Shown: positions 2,182 through 54,172 of the stretch, in pieces | How positions within the stretch are numbered: position 1 is the first letter of the stretch | How the letters are laid out: each line of letters begins with the position of its first letter | DNA from: Polytrichum commune | Taxonomy: Eukaryota; Streptophyta; Polytrichopsida; Polytrichales; Polytrichaceae | Assembly (NCBI GenBank): GCA_950295325.1 | Contig: OX485804.1 | Span: 35,154,001 to 35,218,000 of the forward strand | DNA: 64,000 nt | Reading direction: 5' to 3' | The notes under the pieces: model-generated | What the model was told of the DNA's origin: nothing | Seen by the model: the letters and a program-made list of their open reading frames with translations, nothing else | Database searches by the model: none | Position numbers and translations under genes: made by a program

Positions 2182-3351
2182 TATGTTCTTCAATCTCATC
2201 GTATCATGTGTCTTTTTTAGTGTCCGTTCTTGATTGTATTCCGGGTAGTGTTGCATTTTTTATTCTAGAAGTCGGAGGCGGCATTATGAAATGTTTTTTA
2301 AAATATTTAACATTTTTAATGTTTTTTATTGAAAATAATTGAAAGCATCAATCCGTGAGGTCCTTTATGGCAAATCACAGTCGAAAACATTCCCCTCTTC
2401 TAGGATCAGTTCTTTGAGCTTTTCTCCGCCCAAGTATTGATCCAAGAATGAAGACATTGCGAATGCAAACTATCATTCACGACTTGTCCGGTGTGCCATG
2501 TGGTGCGTTATGTATTCCAGTATTTGTCAGTTCATGTAGCAACACTCAAGTCTCAGAAACTATCATTGAGTTTGAACATACTAATGCTATATGGTAATAT
2601 GGAACAAATGGCGAGGTTGAGCGTGTTTATATTTGCCCTACTGACTTGGACTGACTGCAACCGTGAATATATAATAAAAATCATTAAAAAATGCCTCAAA
2701 ATTTGCTGAGTACTTTAAAATACGTTTTAAAATGTGTATTTTAAAATAAATTAAAAATAAATGCACCACTAATTCCGGGTGTTCAATCAAGAAGACACAA
2801 CCATATTATGAGGCCCAAATACTTAAAAACATATCTTATTTTATCTTATTCTATTGACCAGCAACCTAGTTGCTCAGACGTTGTACAGGTACAGCGAATA
2901 GTTGTTCTATCCAAGTCGCATCCAGTGTTTGTGAAAGCAACAATTCTAAACTGTTATCATATTATATAGATTGATCTTTTTTCTTTGAGATTTTTTGAGA
3001 TATTATTTAGATTGACCATTGTACGTGTGTTATAATAACACACATATTCAAATGTATGACGCACCACTGGTCGGCCTAGAACTTGGCTCGAGTGGTCGAC
3101 CAACTTACATGCACACCACTACTAGCATATGAGTCCTACGCAATCGTCTCACGTCAATGAATGAACAATGCAAATCTACTACTATGTTAGATTTGTAAAT
3201 TTGCCAGTTTCATAGGACAAGTTTCCAGTGACGTATGTCAATTGTCTAGGATTCATGTGCTTGTAGTGCACTCATGAGCACGATCGTGTTTAAAAGCTAT
3301 ACATAAGTTATAGAATTTATATACAAGTTGTACACACACCGTGAGCACTAA

Positions 3352-3700
3352 GGGCTAGTTCACATAGGATCCCAAGTCCCAAGTCCCACTCATGCTAGCA
3401 GGCCCCAACTTTTGAGCCCCAAGACACCATACAAATATAGTTTATTATCGTTAAAAATCAGATCTTGATTATTTTATGCAAAAAAATTTGTGGGACTTGT
3501 GTTCAGAGTTGGGCTAGCTTTTTGCTCGACCCAACACTCAACACAAGTCCCAAGTCTCACCTCCAAAAAGAGCAGTTGCCATCGAGGCATCCATGCCATA
3601 CTTGGGACTCAGGATTTGAGACCCCATGTGAAGTGGGTGATAAGTCCCAACTTCCTACTCTCAACGGCCAAGATTACACGTATTGACCTCAAATATCAAG
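3352..3700. mobile_element. MITE, family D copy 2
   Basis: Same order of sequence blocks as the copy at 214-604: GGGCTAGTTCACATAGGATC left end, TTTATGCAAAAA, then a hairpin (arms about 3493-3514 and 3531-3552 with two mismatches), then CATCCATGCCATACTTGGGA. It follows a TAA. The right boundary is degenerate and approximate. Confidence 0.65.
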
Positions 3701-6954: not shown

Positions 6955-7454
6955 CGGCCACTTCACACATGAGACTGAGAGCCCATGACCATTACATTTC
7001 AAGCACTCTCGTTGGTGGAAAAGGTGGAGCCGGTCCAAGTTTGCTTCACATTACGCTTGAGGGACCAACAGAGTAAGTGAATGCAAGATTGGTGTAAAGT
7101 CTACATGGATTCCTACATGACATCAAATGGATCATGTTTCATGGTCACTTGGACTATTTTCAAAAACCACCTCTTGGAGGTAGCCCTAACACAAAACTAG
7201 GAGACCATGGCACTCCAAACGCTCACAACCGTTAGTTTATTCTATTTTATCATGTGTGAAGACCCACATGAATAGAAATTCATTGAAATAGCATTTGGTC
7301 GAGGGCCTGATCACACATGACTTCACACTACACTTGAGGGTTCGTGACCACACTGCATGATGTTGGAGGTGTGTTGGGACGGCCTTTGGACACTTTTCTT
7401 TTGGGCTCTCACAATTCCATGGTCACGGCTCTTGGCTCGTGTGTGAAGTGGCCC
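6955..7454. mobile_element. Harbinger-like MITE, family A copy 1
   Basis: 500 bp element flanked by TAA on both sides (6952-6954 and 7455-7457). Termini are inverted: CGGCCACTTCACAC at the left and GTGTGAAGTGGCCC at the right. The 3 bp TWA target duplication and GGGCCACTTC-type terminus are the known signature of PIF/Harbinger (Tourist) elements. It is non-coding. Sister copies lie at 13956, 36461, 39952, 41389 and 49420/53629. Confidence 0.85.
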
Positions 7455-12766: not shown

Positions 12767-23305
<10,539 letters not shown>

Positions 23306-23488
23306 CGCTCCGAGTAAAATAGCCCTCTTAACCTTAAACCTTAAACCTCTGTCTCTTCACCTTACCTCTTTGTCTCTTGCTTCCTCTTCCTCCTCCGCCT
23401 CTCCCTCAAATCAAATCGCATGTTCCATCACATCACTGCACGTACAAAGCCCTTATAGACACTAAACATTCTTCACAATTCTGCTCCG

Positions 23489-36460: not shown

Positions 36461-36949
36461 GGGCCACTTCACACATGAGCCAAGAGCCCTGACCATGAAA
36501 CTGTGAGAGCCCAAAAGAAAGTGTCCAAAGGCCATCCCAAGTCACCTCCAAAATCATGTAGTGTGATCATGGACCCTCAAGTGTAGTGTGAAGTCATATG
36601 TGACCAAACCCTCAACCAAATGCTATTTCAATCCATGCAGATCCTCGCACATGATCGAATAGAACAAATCAACAGTTGCGAGCGTTCATAGTGCCAAGGT
36701 CTCCTGGTATTGTGTTAGGCCTACCTCCAGGAGATAGTTGTTGAAAACAGTCCAAGTGACCATGAAACATGGTCCATTCAGTGCCACATAGGAATCCATG
36801 TAGACTTCACATCCACCTTGCATTCACATACTCCATTGGTCCCTCAAGCGTAGTGGGAAGCGAACTTGGACCGGCTCCACCTTTTCCACCAACGAAAGTG
36901 CTTGGAGTGTAATGGTCACGGGCTCTCAGTCTCGTGTGGGAAGTGGCCC
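36461..36949. mobile_element. Harbinger-like MITE, family A copy 2
   Basis: 489 bp. It begins GGGCCACTTCACACATGAGC after TTA and ends GAAGTGGCCC before TAA. The two flanking trinucleotides are not identical (TTA/TAA), so one has mutated or the true edge is one base off. The interior is collinear, in inverse orientation, with the copy at 6955-7454. Non-coding. Confidence 0.85.
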
Positions 36950-36952
36950 TAA

Positions 36953-39951: not shown

Positions 39952-40541
39952 GGGCCACTTCACACACAAGGCTGAAGGCCCTTGACCATGGCAATGTAAG
40001 AGCTCTCATTGGTCGAAAAGGCGGAGACCATCCAAGTTCACTTCACACTAGGAGGTGAAGGCCTAAAGGCCCAAAGAAAAGTTCATGGATGAAAAGTCTA
40101 CATGGAGTCCTACATGGCTAGTTGTGGATAAGGGTGCATGGTCTACCGGAATTTGCGTCAGACCCACCTCCAAGAGGTGGGCTTGACGCAAATTCTGGGA
40201 GACCATGACTTTTTTAATATTTTTTCCAGCAAGACAAATTTCAAGACAGACTGCATGGCAGATTCCAAGACAGATTCCAAGACAGACAAACACCACCAAG
40301 TAGTTATCTTAAATTAATAAACTTGGAGACATATTATATTAAACCAAATCCTCCCCTCTTTTTCCGCCAACAAAATATGCAATGGTCCCGCAACATGGTT
40401 CATTCTCACTTCACACTATGCTTGAGGGCCAAAGACTACATAAAATGGCTTTCCCAACACCCATGGTACGGCCTTTGGATGAGAGTCAAGGGTCCTCACC
40501 ATTACAAGGTCACGGCTCTTGGCTCATGTGTGAAGTGGCCC
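39952..40541. mobile_element. Harbinger-like MITE, family A copy 3
   Basis: 590 bp with identical TTA duplications (39949-39951 and 40542-40544). Left end GGGCCACTTCACACACAAGG, right end TGTGTGAAGTGGCCC. It contains a strong internal hairpin at 40139-40206 (arms AATTTGCGTCAGACCCACCT and AGGTGGGCTTGACGCAAATT, loop near CCAAG) and an extra AT-rich segment around 40205-40370 absent from the shorter copies. Confidence 0.88.
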
Positions 40542-41388: not shown

Positions 41389-41604
41389 GGGCCACTTCAC
41401 ACACAAGACATTGCTGTATTTTAATATTTGTCGTTGGTATGTTGGAGTTTGCGTTAGGTCTAGCTCCGAGAGGTAGGTATGGATGCAAAATCCAGCATAT
41501 CATGCCAAAGTCAAGGGTTTCAAACAATTGGTAGGCCTTTGGATGAGAGTCGAGGGCCTTCACAATTAATGGTCACGGTCCTTGGCTTGTGTATAGAGTG
41601 GCCC
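41389..41604. mobile_element. Family A MITE, short copy 4
   Basis: 216 bp. It starts GGGCCACTTCACACACAAG after TAA and ends GAGTGGCCC. The right flank (TCG) does not match the left TAA. Internal deletion relative to the 490-590 bp copies. It retains a GCGTTAGGTCTAGCTC/GAGAGGTAGGTATGGATGC hairpin remnant. Confidence 0.75.
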
Positions 41605-43540: not shown

Positions 43541-44253
43541 TTACAGATGAACAGATTGAGTTTGAGAAAAAATCGGTTGAAGTTGAAGACTTCAAGAGAA
43601 TCATGCATCGTTTTGGGGGGATCTATGGAATATGCTTCAAATTCATGAAGGAAAACCGAAACATTGCAGCATATTGTAACCGGTTGGACTTGGAAACACG
43701 TGGATTTTTGACTGATCATGTCCGAAAATCCACCCCGGACACTGACTGACGCAGTTGATTAATGCACGAGAGTCAAGTTACAGATGAAGAGATTGAGTTT
43801 GAGAAAGAATCGGTTGAAGTTCGAGACTTCATGAGAATTATGCATCGTTTTGGAGGAATCTATGGAATATGCTTCAAATTAATGAAGAAAACCCGAAACA
43901 TCGCAGCATGTTGTAACCAGTTGGACTTGGAAACACGTGGATTTTTTTAACTAATCGTGTCCGAAAATCCACCCCGGACACTGACTGACGCAGTTGATTA
44001 ATGCACGAGGGTCGAGGTACAGATGAACAGATTGAGTTTGAGAAATCATCGGTTGAAGCTCGAGACTAGGGGAAAATTACTGACCGTTTCGGAGGAATCT
44101 ATGAAATATACTTCAGATTAATAAAGAGAAACCAAAACATCACAACATGTAAACACTGGCAGGACTTGGAAACATGCAAATTTTTGACTGATCATGTCTG
44201 AAAATCTACCCTGGACACTGACTGACGCTGTTGATTACTGCACGAGAGTCGAG
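43541..44253 (+). repeat. Family E array: three tandem units of about 237 bp
   Basis: Units begin at 43541, 43778 and 44017 with TTACAGATGAACAGATTGAG-type sequence and end with CACCCCGGACACTGACTGACGC and a CACGAGAGTC spacer. The first two units are closer to each other than to the third. Dispersed single copies at 1961, 10729 and 56216 show that the array arose from a mobile or amplified repeat. Confidence 0.88.
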
Positions 44254-49063: not shown

Positions 49064-49515
49064 TAAACACCATAATCGGCGTAATGACCGAAAAAGTAGA
49101 CGTTGAGCACGTCGCCCAACACCTTTCGAACACATGTCTTTTTGTTGTCCGGTCTTTAAGCAGAAAGATCCACACCTAACCACACACCACTTAACTTAGA
49201 ATACGGTAGGTGTCCGATCGCGATGAGCATCCCGATTACTAGGTCGGCTTACCTTACCACTTTATTCAGCTTAGGTAACAGACTTTTTAACTTTTGTTTC
49301 AGCGCCAAATGGTACTTTTACTGCTGTGAAAGGGGTCGAGATTTGTGCTGATTTGCATCACTGACGACAGTCTATGATGCCCTGATCTTTAACTAATAAG
49401 TTATGCACCACTTAACTTAGGGCCACTTCACACCAGGGTGTATGTTTGACAAATTTCATGTGACGTTCAACCTCAAATCCAAAGTGTCACGTGACGTTTT
49501 CAAAAAAAAAAATGA

Positions 49516-49529
49516 ATGTCAATTGACAT
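49516..49529. promoter_or_regulatory. hAT left subterminal palindrome
   Basis: ATGTCAATTGACAT, a perfect 14 bp palindrome 82 bp inside the left end. Related GTGTCAATTGACGTG occurs twice near the right end. hAT transposases are known to bind repeated subterminal motifs; that role here is inferred. Confidence 0.55.
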
Positions 49530-49641
49530 CTACATTTTATTTCAAAATGTCACCTCAATTTTTGGCTTACACAATATTGTAGAAAACTAATATTTTGAAT
49601 AATAATAAAACAAACTTGATTTGTAACAAAAATAATAAAAA

Positions 49642-51876
49642 TCAATCGAGCGTAAGTATCCTTCGGTCTCGCGTGTTTCTCCAAATGTTGAAGATGGTAG
49701 CCCAATCCATTGCATCCACTTCAAGCCCACAAAGAGAAACCCGCATAAGAGCATCAAGGGTCTTCAAGTTCAACCTATTGCGCAAGCGGCTTTTGATTGC
49801 ATTTTGTTTGGAAAATCCTCTCTCACAAATAGCTATACTTGATGGAATGAGTATAATTTTTTGCCAAAGTTGCATAAGTTTAGGCCAATTTGTATGCCAT
49901 TCCAAATTGCTACCACATATGCGCCAAGCCTCAAATATCGTTTTGTTCTCACACTCATGTCGAAGTGTTTCCGTAAATTCCAAGAGTTCTCCCTTACACA
50001 TGTCACTCTCTTCTTCAGTGTATTGAAACTTCAACAATATTCTTTCGAGCCACAATTCGGTATTTGTGATTCGGTCACTATCATCGCTTGGATAATTACG
50101 AGGGCTGAAAAGTTTGGCCGCACTGAATATTGGAAGGTCTGGGAAACGATCGTTCAAAGCATGAACAACTCTTTGCACATAAGATGCATCCAACAATACA
50201 CATTGTTGTAGTTCATTGGGCCCATCAATTGCCAATGCATGAATAATACGATCTCCTGTATTATTTTCATAATTCAATTGAAGATTTTCTGCAGATTCTC
50301 TCAAGAATTTTCCCAAATTCTTGCTTGTACGACCAAACATAGGTCCATTCCCGGATAAAAAATGACGTGATAAAATTGAAATGGTGATATCGATGGTTGC
50401 ACTAATAGTTGTGATATCAACCATATCATACTGAAATTTGATATTCAATTTATTCAACTCTTGTAAAACATCCACAAGTAAGTTCAAATAAAAATGAAAT
50501 TTGAAAGAACACATAATCTCATACCAATGTGGTTCTTCATCTCTGAACAATTCCAATAATGCCGGCATGCACTGTAGTAAGTGGGTCATAACATTACCTC
50601 GAGAAAGCCACCGTACTGTATGAATTTGTAAAACCACTACATAATCTTCTTCAAATACATCTTTCAACAATCGTTTCAGCTCATTGCGTCGATTTGTACT
50701 ACGGCCCACCCACTCATAAACTTTGTTGGCAAAACGATCCAACATTTGAAAATCTGGAAAAGATCTAGTTGCATCTCCTGCAGCTAAAGCCTCACGATGT
50801 GCAATACAATGCACATTTATGAGAGTTGGAACCTCTGCACGCATTCTAGTTGCTAGTCCTGTACGATGTCCCGTCATACTAGAAGCCCCATCAGTGGCTA
50901 GAGCTACTTGTTTTAGAGGCATCCAATGCATTTTCTCCAATAATCCAGTAATAACTTGATACATAGATTCAGCTGTACCATCTCGAAGAGCCAAAAGCTC
51001 AACAAATCTTGTAACATGAGGTCCTTTCCCATTATTTGATAAATAAACAACATAAACAATCAAATGTTGTTCAAGAGTTCGATCAGTGGCTTCATCTATC
51101 ATCAAAGAAAAAAACGGAGAGGATTGCGCCTCTGATAAAAGTTTATCATTGAGATATTTTGAAATTGCCCATAAAAATTCCAATGCTGCATATCCTGAAG
51201 TATATGAACCATATTCATCATTGACAGGCATATTTGGAGTTTGTAGTAGTGAAAGCAATTGGCATGTATCTTGATAAGTCAATATTGAACGATCATTCCA
51301 TACTGTAAAATATAAAACTTTCATCACAGTGATGATTCTTGATTGTTCTCTATCTATCATGACATTCAGCCCTTGAATCACTGGAGGTGCATTTGCACGT
51401 TGAGGAAAATGTATATCCTCCCAACGAGTTACCGAATGTTTGTGATCAACATTCTTTTCATGAACCTTGACAGCTGATTTTTGTAAACTTTTGCAACCAA
51501 TGCCTGTCCCCCATCTGGATTCAACACGCATTTCTTGGCAAGCAGCGCATTTCATAAAACATGTTGCTGGCCCATCATTTGGTCTATAATGTAATAACCA
51601 TGGCCTACCAATTTTCCATGAAGCCTTAAAAACTCTTCGATACCTTTGTTGATTGGGAATGACATGAGCAGGTTCTCGAATTACATCATTTCCAACATCA
51701 TCATCTGATTGAGATTCACTCTCATTATTCATGTTGAGAGAAAAAATTTCATGTTCAAATCCTGGAGTTTGTTGAGATGACTGAAATGAAGATTGAGAAG
51801 ACACTCTTCCACCAAAAATCTCATTCAAATTAAGTTGACGAGCTCTTCCACGGTTGTTGTTACTTCCAGAAGCCAT
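49642..51876 (-). CDS. hAT transposase (zinc-finger, RNase H-like, hATC)
   Basis: Intronless 744-residue frame with ATG start and no frameshift. It would cut and paste the surrounding element. An N-terminal low-complexity region is followed by a zinc finger at about 95-150 (C-x2-C in MKCAACQ, then H-x5-H in VHEKNVDHKH, TTF/BED-like). The RNase H-like fold starts with FFSLMIDEATD (first catalytic Asp region), then ALATDGASSMTGHRTGLATR (second Asp motif), the insertion domain with the HTVRWLSRG Arg-Trp motif, and the C-terminal hAT dimerisation region with SIAICERGFSKQNAIKSRLR near 680-700. This motif order resembles the ZMYM/DUF4371-type hAT proteins rather than plant Ac. No catalytic motif is visibly broken, so it may still be functional; whether it is expressed cannot be told. 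Confidence 0.95.
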   Translation of the reverse strand: MASGSNNNRGRARQLNLNEIFGGRVSSQSSFQSSQQTPGFEHEIFSLNMNNESESQSDDDVGNDVIREPAHVIPNQQRYRRVFKASWKIGRPWLLHYRPNDGPATCFMKCAACQEMRVESRWGTGIGCKSLQKSAVKVHEKNVDHKHSVTRWEDIHFPQRANAPPVIQGLNVMIDREQSRIITVMKVLYFTVWNDRSILTYQDTCQLLSLLQTPNMPVNDEYGSYTSGYAALEFLWAISKYLNDKLLSEAQSSPFFSLMIDEATDRTLEQHLIVYVVYLSNNGKGPHVTRFVELLALRDGTAESMYQVITGLLEKMHWMPLKQVALATDGASSMTGHRTGLATRMRAEVPTLINVHCIAHREALAAGDATRSFPDFQMLDRFANKVYEWVGRSTNRRNELKRLLKDVFEEDYVVVLQIHTVRWLSRGNVMTHLLQCMPALLELFRDEEPHWYEIMCSFKFHFYLNLLVDVLQELNKLNIKFQYDMVDITTISATIDITISILSRHFLSGNGPMFGRTSKNLGKFLRESAENLQLNYENNTGDRIIHALAIDGPNELQQCVLLDASYVQRVVHALNDRFPDLPIFSAAKLFSPRNYPSDDSDRITNTELWLERILLKFQYTEEESDMCKGELLEFTETLRHECENKTIFEAWRICGSNLEWHTNWPKLMQLWQKIILIPSSIAICERGFSKQNAIKSRLRNRLNLKTLDALMRVSLCGLEVDAMDWATIFNIWRNTRDRRILTLD

Positions 51877-52573
51877 ATGTTATGTCTGCAAAATAATTCA
51901 ATTCTAATCATATAAATTTAATACACTCATCAACAAACAACATTCAAATTTCATTCTTATCCAATAACAAGTTAGTGAAAATTCCCCTACAATATGTTTT
52001 CAAATTCACAAAGCCTTTACATCATGAAAAGAATCCTGAACAATCTAATTTCAATGTGATGTTGGTGACGCCCTTGAGTATGTAGAATCATAAAGGCAAA
52101 TTAAAAATAGAATGATTAATTTTATTCACAGTCACAAAGACTACACAATGCAAAGTGGAATTTTGTAAAAAATTCATAAATTAAGAAACATGAATTTCGT
52201 AAACAATTCATAAACCCCAACTTATGTATTGAATCCATCATGAATCTAGCCAAGGAAAAACAAGCTTCAAACAAAATTGGCATCCCTATTCACAAGTTAT
52301 GTTTCCAACTTCATGAAGGCTTGACATTATAGAAAAGAAAACCCTACTTATGTGAATTTCAATATGCAGATGTTGAGTGAAATCCCGCCAGTGCATCGAA
52401 TTACAAAGACAAATTAGGAAAATAGTGATTAACTTTATTCACAATCATAAAAACTACACAATTCAAAGTGAAATTTCCACAGAAGCTCCACCAAACCATA
52501 TACAACACTGAAGGGGAAAAACTAGCCTTTCCACTGTATCAGAACAAAGTGCGCTACTGTATCAGAACAAATT

Positions 52574-52979
52574 GTATCAGAACAAAATGCGAAACTATAT
52601 CAAAAGTCAAGGCCAGTTATGTGTTTCTTAATAAAAATGAAGGTCCCTGACCTCAAATCATTTCAAACCAGCAGAGACTCGACTACGCGAATTACTGTAT
52701 CCTATGTCACTCTCAGAAGCTACTTTATTAGTCTATACAACCAACTACTCCACCATCAAGTGTGCCCGTTTGCAATTGTATCAGAACAAAGTGCGAAACT
52801 ATATCAAAAGTCAAGGCCAGTTATGTGTTTCTTAATAAAAATCAAGGTCCCTGACCTCAAATCATTTCAAACTAGCAGAGACTCGACTACGCGAATTACT
52901 ATATCCTATGTCACTCTCAGAAGCTGCTTTATTAGTCTATACAACCAACTACTCCACCATCAAGTGTGCCCGTTTGCAA
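52574..52979. repeat. 204 bp tandem duplication inside the hAT element
   Basis: Two near-identical units, 52574-52777 and 52778-52979, both containing CAAGGCCAGTTATGTGTTTC, GAGACTCGACTACGCGAATT and CCACCATCAAGTGTGCCCGT. They lie upstream of the transposase start, between it and the right terminus. Confidence 0.92.
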
Positions 52980-53148
52980 CAAACTACTTCAGAATACGAA
53001 GAACCACAATTTCATGACAGAAAATCGACATTGTTCCCCAAAAACAAGAAACACAATATCTTGTCTTGGGAACTGAATGATTGCCTTCTCATGCAATGTA
53101 GACTCTAGAAAACTCTGAAGTATATTGACTCGCCTTGGTAATTTTGGC

Positions 53149-53230
53149 CTCACATTGGTTGGAAGCAAGAAAAACTCACATTGGTTGGAAGCAAGAAAAA
53201 ACTCACATTTGTTGGAAGCAAGAAAAAACT
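53149..53230. repeat. 26-27 bp triplicate repeat inside the hAT element
   Basis: Three units of CTCACATTGGTTGGAAGCAA plus an A-tract, differing by one base and by A-tract length. Confidence 0.9.
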
Positions 53231-53475
53231 CATATGGAGTGGAGGATGTGCAAGCACCACGGTGATACAAACATTTGCCTCGCCATGTTCCTAGTTAGTC
53301 TCGCTCTCCAATCACCGTCTTAGCTCCCGGTTACAAAGGAAATTGCAAGAGCAAAGTTGAACTTAAGTATGTGAGTGAGTGTAGGAAGTTCTCCTACTGT
53401 TATGGGTTATGTTTTCCGGATATTTGAGCTGCACTTTATAGTACTCAAGTAATACGTGTCATTTCAATTTCTAGT

Positions 53476-53554
53476 GTGTCAATTGACGTGTGGTTTTTTT
53501 CTTCACAAGTCACAGTACGTGTCAATTTCTAGATTGTGCGTGTCAATTGACGTG
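53476..53554. promoter_or_regulatory. hAT right subterminal repeats
   Basis: GTGTCAATTGACGTG at 53476-53490 and again at 53540-53554, with partial ACGTGTCAATTTCTAG units around them. They mirror the left-end palindrome. Candidate transposase-binding sites. Confidence 0.55.
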
Positions 53555-54172
53555 CATTTTTTTTTTGTGCAAGTTTTTGCGTGTCAAAAGAGAAAAACTT
53601 GCAAAAACTTTGTCAAACATATACGCTGCTTCACACACAAGCCAAGAGCCGTGACCATGAAATTGTGAGAGCCCAGAATAGAGTGTCCAAAGGCCATCCC
53701 AAGGCACCTCCAAAATCATGTAGTGTGGTCACGGACCCTCAAGTGTAGTGTAAAGTCATATGTGACCGGGCCCTCAACCAAATGCAGTTTCAATGAATTT
53801 TTATTCATGCGGGTCCTCACGCATGATAAAGTAGAATAAATCAACGCTTGTGAACATTCGGAGTGCCGTGGTCTCCTGGTTTTGTGTTAGGCCTACCTCC
53901 AAGAGGTGGTGTTTGAAAATAGTCCAAGTGACCATGAAACATGATCCATTCGATGCCATGTAAGAGTCCATGTAGACTTTACATCTATCTTGCATTCACT
54001 TACTCCGTTGGTCCCTCAAGCGTAGTGTGAAGTGAACTTGGACCGGCTCCGCCTTTTCCACCAATGAGAGTGCTTGAAGCGTAATGGTCATAGGCTCTGA
54101 GTCTCGTGTGTGAAGTGCCCCTTACAAAGTTTACAGCCGATTCCTTTGCCACTTGTGGCTTTAACATACTAA

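Follow-up and report, generated by a model that had tools for sequence, protein, structure and literature searches.

A hAT transposon nested in the terminal repeat of an older PIF/Harbinger-like MITE in Polytrichum commune

RESULTS

Structure of the locus

In the window, the whole 64,000-nucleotide stretch of Polytrichum commune contig OX485804.1 analysed here, a 4195 bp hAT element is nested in the terminal repeat of an older PIF/Harbinger-like MITE (Table 1), a reading to which we assign a probability of about 97%. The same 8 bp, CTTCACAC, borders the hAT element on both sides and, as the initial annotation had proposed, is at once the hAT target-site duplication (TSD) and a part of the terminal inverted repeat (TIR) of the MITE, GGGCCACTTCACAC. 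All coordinates of that annotation held on rechecking, its end point of 54124 counting the flanking TTA, and the MITE proper ending at 54121. The two hAT ends, CAGGGTGTATGTTTGACAAA and CAGCGTATATGTTTGACAAA, differ by 2 mismatches in 20 bases. Removal of the hAT element and one TSD from 49420–54121 leaves a MITE of 499 bp with TTA on both sides, which was aligned as a 501 bp sequence including two flank bases. Over its full length, the rejoined MITE matched two complete copies in the window, 7454–6953 at 89.4% and 36461–36950 at 85.0%, bearing out the earlier claim that it is collinear with the latter copy. No evidence against the nested insertion was found.

Table 1 Features of the nested insertion and related MITE copies in the window
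Feature	Position	Strand	Basis
Complete same-family MITE copy, flanks TAA/TAA	6955-7454	-	Alignment
Complete same-family MITE copy, flanks TTA/TAA (unequal)	36461-36949	+	Alignment
Diverged same-family MITE copy, flanks TTA/TTA	39952-40541		Flank check
Left MITE TSD, TTA	49417-49419	.	Matches TTA at 54122-54124
Left MITE TIR, containing left hAT TSD	49420-49433	+	Sequence
Left hAT TSD	49426-49433	.	Sequence
hAT element, 4195 bp	49434-53628	- (strand of transposase frame)	Ends, genome copies
hAT TIR, 3′ side of transposase	49434-49453	+	Ends compared
Palindrome GTCAATTGAC, left subterminal	49518-49527	.	Further copies at 53478 and 53542
Uninterrupted 744-aa hAT transposase frame	49642-51876	-	ORF, profile matches
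5′ side of transposase, without long frame	51877-53628	-	Sequence
Tandem duplication, 204 bp, 5 differences between units	52570-52977	.	Sequence, hAT copies
hAT TIR, 5′ side of transposase	53609-53628	-	Ends compared
Right hAT TSD	53629-53636	.	Sequence
Remaining MITE part; right TIR 54108-54121 (1 mismatch in 14)	53637-54121	+	Sequence
Right MITE TSD, TTA	54122-54124	.	Sequence

According to PMC4423477, PIF/Harbinger TIRs begin with GG(G/C)CC. The TIR of the MITE starts with GGGCC, and the family is flanked by 3 bp TTA/TAA target duplications, unequal only at 36461–36949; these two traits support a Harbinger-like assignment of the MITE. The end and target-duplication traits listed for hAT and for PIF/Harbinger in Table 1 of PMC4423477 agree with both elements of the locus.

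The hAT element

The predicted transposase carries a zf-C17orf113 zinc finger at residues 92–153 and a hAT dimerisation domain (PF05699; 24.2 bits against a cutoff of 21.4) at residues 661–711. Residues D261, D329 and E685 align with those of Hermes that we take to be catalytic (D180, D248 and E572), in a weak alignment with an E value of 0.0046 overall and 0.3 bits for the stretch holding both aspartates. The CxxH motif, C357xxH360, was assigned by position, and a single-sequence structure model of the protein was unusable (pLDDT 32.9). The dimerisation domain above cutoff, the 8 bp TSD and the CA-ended TIRs (CAGGG and CAGCG ends) together support placement of the element in the hAT superfamily. 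The transposase is presumably expressed and functional, and transposition would have followed the hairpin-type hAT reaction.

Immediately ahead of the transposase ATG lies an acceptor-like TTTTGCAG, which would fit a putative 5′ UTR intron. The 204 bp tandem duplication was found in 8 of the 10 young hAT copies described below and thus probably predates the insertion at 49434. The subterminal palindrome is confined within the window to its three positions (49518, 53478 and 53542), and is a candidate transposase-binding site. A search of viral contigs yielded no relatives, and neither Rfam, at gathering thresholds across the window, nor NCBIfam gave a match.

Genome copies, age and order of insertion

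In the 408 Mb source genome, 40 of 1110 first-look candidate hAT matches were scored. Of these, 29 retained the two ends together with an 8 bp duplication, which was perfect in 28 and had one mismatch in the other; the remaining 11 had no clean duplication under the rule of the script. The initial annotation had named as evidence against itself the lack of a CTTCACAC duplication beside other hAT copies, an odd wording, as what is expected there is duplication of each copy's own 8-mer. This was indeed the pattern at the other 28 clean-ended copies (27 perfect, one with a mismatch). Furthermore, at five other exact 14 bp MITE ends in the window (7441, 36461, 39952, 40528 and 41389), CTTCACAC occurs singly and the sequence runs unbroken into the MITE interior. 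The own-sequence duplications of the hAT copies and the single CTTCACAC at intact MITE ends thus argue that the junction is more than a chance match. The duplications also bear on a possible assembly artefact, in which a hAT contig was misjoined to MITE sequence. Both elements are repeats, and repeats are prone to misjoining, but a misjoin would not leave two whole hAT TIRs bordered on either side by exact 8 bp duplicates, and the same form of junction recurs at 28 other copies. This explanation is the least probable of those considered.

Ten near-full-length hAT copies, including that of the window, are 0.31–1.67% apart, and the window copy differs from the other nine by 0.43–1.41%. With ten copies less than 2% apart, the family is young, as judged from sequence divergence. 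Ten of 12 near-full-length copies, among them the window copy, share the same sequence at both 20-base ends, and the uninterrupted 744-codon frame is kept in 4 of the 12. Codon variants of the transposase among the young copies comprised 11 synonymous and 62 other changes; with no synonymous excess, there was no sign of selection among these copies, and the intact frame is attributed to youth. Divergence among complete MITE copies in the window, three in number, is 11–15%, making them older than the hAT family. The earlier proposal of a recent insertion is supported by the copy divergence, and the distance of 0.43% to the nearest copy is a better argument for it than the perfect 8 bp match on which it had been founded, from which recency can only be inferred.

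The disparity between hAT copies 0.31–1.67% apart and MITE copies 11–15% apart supports both recency and an order in which the MITE came first. We propose the following scenario. A TTA site would first have received a PIF/Harbinger-like MITE. A young hAT element, from a family that retains some uninterrupted transposase frames, would later have inserted by cut and paste 14 bases into the MITE, and an 8 bp stagger would have led to duplication of CTTCACAC. The split terminal repeat may no longer be usable by the helper transposase of the MITE, which would have immobilised it. Alternatively, the MITE could have been split by the hAT element elsewhere, and the 4.7 kb composite could then have transposed to the present site as a single PIF-type unit, which would account for the outer TTA duplication. 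The outer duplications are compatible with either order, and the outermost 14 MITE bases are still present at the left end. However, a PIF transposase would then have to act on an end separated from its inner sequence by 4.2 kb, and CTTCACAC duplications occurred at none of the 39 other scored hAT places (40 of 1110 candidates scored), so no second composite copy was seen. We consider a composite move highly improbable, though slightly less so than a misjoin.

Target preference and insertions at MITE ends

The hAT family has a real target preference, which CTTCACAC fits. The TSDs hold 2.75 bits of information, a value that did not exceed 0.93 in any of 2000 random samples of the flanks. Under a matrix built without it, CTTCACAC is among the best-scoring 1.5% of 8-mers in the window. 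T at position 2 or A at position 7 was found in 35 of 58 cases (p = 1.2e-6), in agreement with nTnnnnAn; both occurred jointly in only 6 of 27, against about 2.5 expected.

A second hAT copy, L045, a derivative that starts with TAG instead of CA, lies in a terminal repeat of another member of this MITE family, its duplication starting one base outside the MITE. A sister copy, L009, lies inside another PIF-like MITE, at CTTCACAT. As an addition to the nested insertion rather than a replacement for it, the hAT family may be drawn to PIF-type MITE ends as recurrent landing pads, since two 8-mers close to the hAT target consensus, AGGGCCAC and CTTCACAC, occur in GGGCCACTTCACAC with its flanking A. 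These are the top-scoring 8-mers touching the 14 bp repeat (3.17 and 3.65, respectively), and finding at least two of 29 clean insertions in terminal repeats of this family (window and L045) has a P of 0.004 if sites are taken as uniform and of 0.012 if they are weighted by preference. However, the window copy was selected for its position in a terminal repeat, and without it the P for at least one of 28 is 0.07 (uniform) or 0.13 (weighted). The score of AGGGCCAC includes L045 and falls without it to 2.38, in the top 4.6%, and the higher-scoring GAGCCAAG (3.77), just inside the repeat, has no insertion.

For MITE bodies, a first count of 2 of 29 insertions in two MITE families (P = 0.23–0.35; within-locus permutation, 0.42) was discarded, its rule having overlooked L045. 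The bodies of the two families make up 3.2–4.2% of the flanking DNA, so that 0.9–1.2 hits would be expected among 29; three were observed with L045 (P = 0.06–0.12), which is not significant, and targeting of MITE bodies is thus not claimed. Without the window copy, the count is 2 of 28 (P = 0.22–0.33). A search for TIR-bounded hosts around the 29 insertions returned four loci, with a long repeat and TTA duplication only at the L009 MITE; this search was insensitive, as it overlooked both L045 and, in its true frame, the window MITE. Among the best-ranked literature matches, no title dealt with hAT elements inserted in the terminal repeats of MITEs, which is weak evidence of absence. An excess of MITE-end insertions over the expectation from abundance is unproven, and we regard preferential landing at MITE ends as rather unlikely.

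DISCUSSION

Nested transposon insertions are common in plant genomes, and the present one is an ordinary case of a transposon within a transposon, resolved to the base. As in other plant nested insertions, an older element holds a younger one, and each is bordered by a target duplication of its own; here, however, the terminal repeat itself was struck, and PIF-like MITEs were also hit by two further copies of this hAT family. The practical use of the event lies in its base-level resolution, in a young family with uninterrupted transposase frames. If MITE ends were favoured, two transposon superfamilies would be linked, a commoner MITE offering more hAT targets and each insertion cutting the MITE's own end, which would be a concrete mechanism for one superfamily disabling another.

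The hAT element shares with Ac, Hermes and Tip100 the 8 bp TSD, short imperfect TIRs starting with CA, the dimerisation domain and the putative DDE residues, and its family likewise comprises copies of 3.9–4.2 kb and internally deleted derivatives. In contrast, the zinc finger at its N terminus was matched by the C17orf113 model, and BED was not among the listed matches. The MITE resembles the PIF/Harbinger (Tourist-like) MITEs mPIF, mPing and mPePIF1, as tabulated in PMC4423477 (Table 1) and PMC6327408 (Table 2), in its length of approximately 500 bp, GGGCC TIR start and 3 bp TTA/TAA duplication. Its TIR runs on as CACTTCACAC, whereas those of ZmPIFa and PePIF1 run towards GTTTG.

The 29 resolved insertions provide a target preference for a hAT family with a C17orf113-type zinc finger. 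For the Tip group, target preference is described in PMC3942097 as not having been investigated. The T2/A7 bias is like that of Hermes, given as nTnnnnAn in PMC10368747, and the bias here is additionally G/C-rich at positions 1, 4, 5 and 8.

Anatomy of the nested insertion

The initial annotation proposed that a hAT element is nested in the terminal repeat of a MITE at 49420-54124, and the sequence agrees with this placement, except that the end at 54124 takes in the flanking TTA, the MITE itself stopping at 54121. The insertion of a young hAT into the end of this PIF-type MITE is thus real and cleanly resolved, and represents a fresh example of a well-known type of event. As also proposed, the 8 bp CTTCACAC on both sides of the hAT belong at the same time to the 14 bp MITE end GGGCCACTTCACAC, and TTA flanks the MITE on both sides. 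Excision of the hAT and one duplication was predicted to restore a MITE of approximately 499 bp, collinear with the copy at 36461, and indeed leaves 499 bp.

Coordinates of the nested insertion and flanks of MITE family A copies in the window
Feature	Position	Remark
TTA, left MITE flank	49417-49419	
Left MITE end GGGCCACTTCACAC	49420-49433	
Left hAT target duplication CTTCACAC	49426-49433	part of GGGCCACTTCACAC
hAT	49434-53628	4195 bp
Right hAT target duplication CTTCACAC	53629-53636	
Remaining MITE	right of CTTCACAC 53629-53636, to 54121	
TTA, right MITE flank	54122-54124	
Interrupted MITE	49420-54121	flanks TTA/TTA
MITE copy	6955-7454	flanks TAA/TAA
MITE copy	39952-40541	flanks TTA/TTA
MITE copy	36461-36949	flanks unequal, TTA/TAA

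When the MITE halves were rejoined by script (501 bp including two flank bases), the product aligned over its full length with the window copies at 7454-6953 (89.4%, 1 gap) and 36461-36950 (85.0%, 10 gaps), which agree with each other at 84.8%. Further family members, either incomplete or with greater divergence, are located near 13956, 39952-40541 and 41389-41604, and CTTCACAC occurs singly in the five other exact 14 bp ends of the window, each continuing into MITE interior. It is a reasonable inference that the split of its terminal repeat would have immobilised the MITE.

According to Table 1 of PMC4423477, Harbinger elements have a 3 bp duplication, TAA/TTA, and an end GG(G/C)CC, and hAT elements an 8 bp duplication and CA ends; Table 2 of PMC6327408 gives GGGCCCGTTTGTTT and TTA for ZmPIFa. 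The TWA flanks and GGGCC-starting end of the window MITE family match the Harbinger entry of PMC4423477. A further repeat family with a related end (GGGCCAGTTCACAT, GGGCTAGTTCACAT, GGGCCGGTTCACAT) starts at window 214, 3352 and 44544.

Copies, age and coding capacity of the hAT

The genome (407.8 Mb, 64 contigs; probably that of a plant, judging by its elements; the window is C2:35154001-35218000) gave 1110 first-look candidates, of which 40 were scored, the 39 loci other than the window being retrieved. All 40 matched the hAT, and the family may therefore be much larger. At 29 of the 40 loci (the window and 28 others), the two hAT ends are present together with an 8 bp duplication; the duplication is perfect in 28 of these, with one mismatch in L027, and the 29 sequences are all distinct as read, those of L020 and L021 being mutual reverse complements. 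By the script's rule, 11 loci have truncated or diverged ends (L028, L032, L036, L037, L040-L044, L046 and L047). The small-contig locus L028 (C24:10700-16484) repeats L032 (C3:873500-879271), with the same hAT relic and identical 25 printed bases on either side, which may reflect haplotype duplication in the assembly.

Of the twelve copies longer than 3.9 kb, ten young ones (the window copy and L009-L017) show pairwise differences of 0.31-1.67%, with 0.43-1.41% separating the window copy from the other nine, and L019 and L020 are 4.75-6.71% from all other copies of this size. The 17 shorter clean-ended copies measure 1475-1940 bp, and all eight that were aligned to the window copy match both end regions without the middle. 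Because the three complete window MITE copies are 11-15% apart and the ten young hAT copies less than 2%, the hAT is later than the MITE, an order that the anatomy also requires. A 204 bp tandem duplication inside the hAT is present in eight of the ten young copies, L012 and L013 having one unit only; it is thus probably older than the window insertion and of no use for dating.

The window hAT carries an uninterrupted frame of 744 codons (minus strand, 49642-51876), which is whole in four of the 12 copies over 3.9 kb (window, L011, L012 and L016). Among the young transposase copies no purifying selection was seen (11 synonymous versus 62 other codon variants, at about 475 and 1757 sites, respectively), and for this reason the intact frame is attributed to youth; in the same codon comparison, the ratio for the window copy was 0.53 versus L019 and 0.50 versus L020. 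Pfam matches in the frame are zf-C17orf113 (33.5 bits, cutoff 29.5) and Dimer_Tnp_hAT (24.2 bits, cutoff 21.4), and Hermes-like transposase chains are its best match among solved structures (E 0.0046). D261, D329 and E685 pair with Hermes residues that we take to be the catalytic D180, D248 and E572, the stretch with D261 and D329 scoring only 0.3 bits. The frame also has a CxxH motif (C357/H360), which PMC4763223 assigns to the active site of Hermes.

Within the entire window, the palindrome GTCAATTGAC is confined to three sites close to the hAT ends (49518, 53478 and 53542) and is a candidate subterminal transposase binding site, comparable to the Hermes subterminal repeats that serve in transposase binding as described in PMC10368747. 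TTTTGCAG lies directly before the ATG, which would fit a putative 5' UTR intron.

Target preference and possible recurrence in MITEs

The 29 duplications contain 2.75 bits of information, whereas 2000 samples drawn from their flanks average 0.30 bits and never exceed 0.93; G+C is 56% in the duplications versus 41% in the flanking DNA. Of 58 cases, 35 have T at position 2 or A at position 7 (p = 1.2e-6), a bias resembling the Hermes preference nTnnnnAn reported in PMC10368747, though both letters are present in only 6 of 27 sites. When the 8-mers of the window are ranked with a matrix built from 27 of the other insertions, CTTCACAC falls within the top 1.5%. The best two 8-mers touching the 14 bp repeat are CTTCACAC (3.65) and AGGGCCAC (3.17; 2.38, top 4.6%, without L045 in the matrix), yet GAGCCAAG, just inward of the repeat, scores higher (3.77) and has no insertion.

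L045, a derivative of 1.9 kb that was inserted independently seven bases into an end of a family A MITE, has AGGGCCAC as its target duplication. Two of 29 insertions are thus in terminal repeats (P 0.004, uniform; 0.012, preference-weighted); excluding the window copy, as it was chosen for being in one, leaves 1 of 28 (P 0.07 or 0.13, respectively). In L009 (C1:61721617-61727400; 0.50% from the window copy), the hAT lies 352 bp inside a different element of 566 bp with TTA flanks and GGGCCACTTCACAC ends, at an internal CTTCACAT. MITE bodies make up 3.2-4.2% of the flanking DNA (density was measured near hAT copies and in the window), so that 0.9-1.2 of the 29 insertions would be expected in them; the observed number was three (P 0.06-0.12), or two of 28 excluding the window copy (P 0.22-0.33). 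On these figures, recurrent insertion in MITEs is no more than suggestive. The insertion at L033 lies 22 bp outside a family A copy.

The host in L009 (249-5017) represents a second family of PIF-like MITEs. With the hAT removed it measures 566 bp; it has ends GGGCCACTTCACACTATGG, with the 14 bp end in common with family A, and an inner CTTCACAT/CTTCACAC repeat. L033 (C2:56154600-56160306) contains two tandem family A MITEs at 2401-3560, each bearing an additional 62 bp of terminal sequence beside one end, an arrangement resembling a MITE duplication in which the ends are doubled.

Other features of the window

Minus-strand frames at 19785-23356 match PADR1_N, with a zf-PARP match below its cutoff, and probably represent exons of a gene for poly(ADP-ribose) polymerase. 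A 237 bp unit is present in three tandem copies at 43542-44253, and a related 130 bp stretch is also found at 1988 and 10723.
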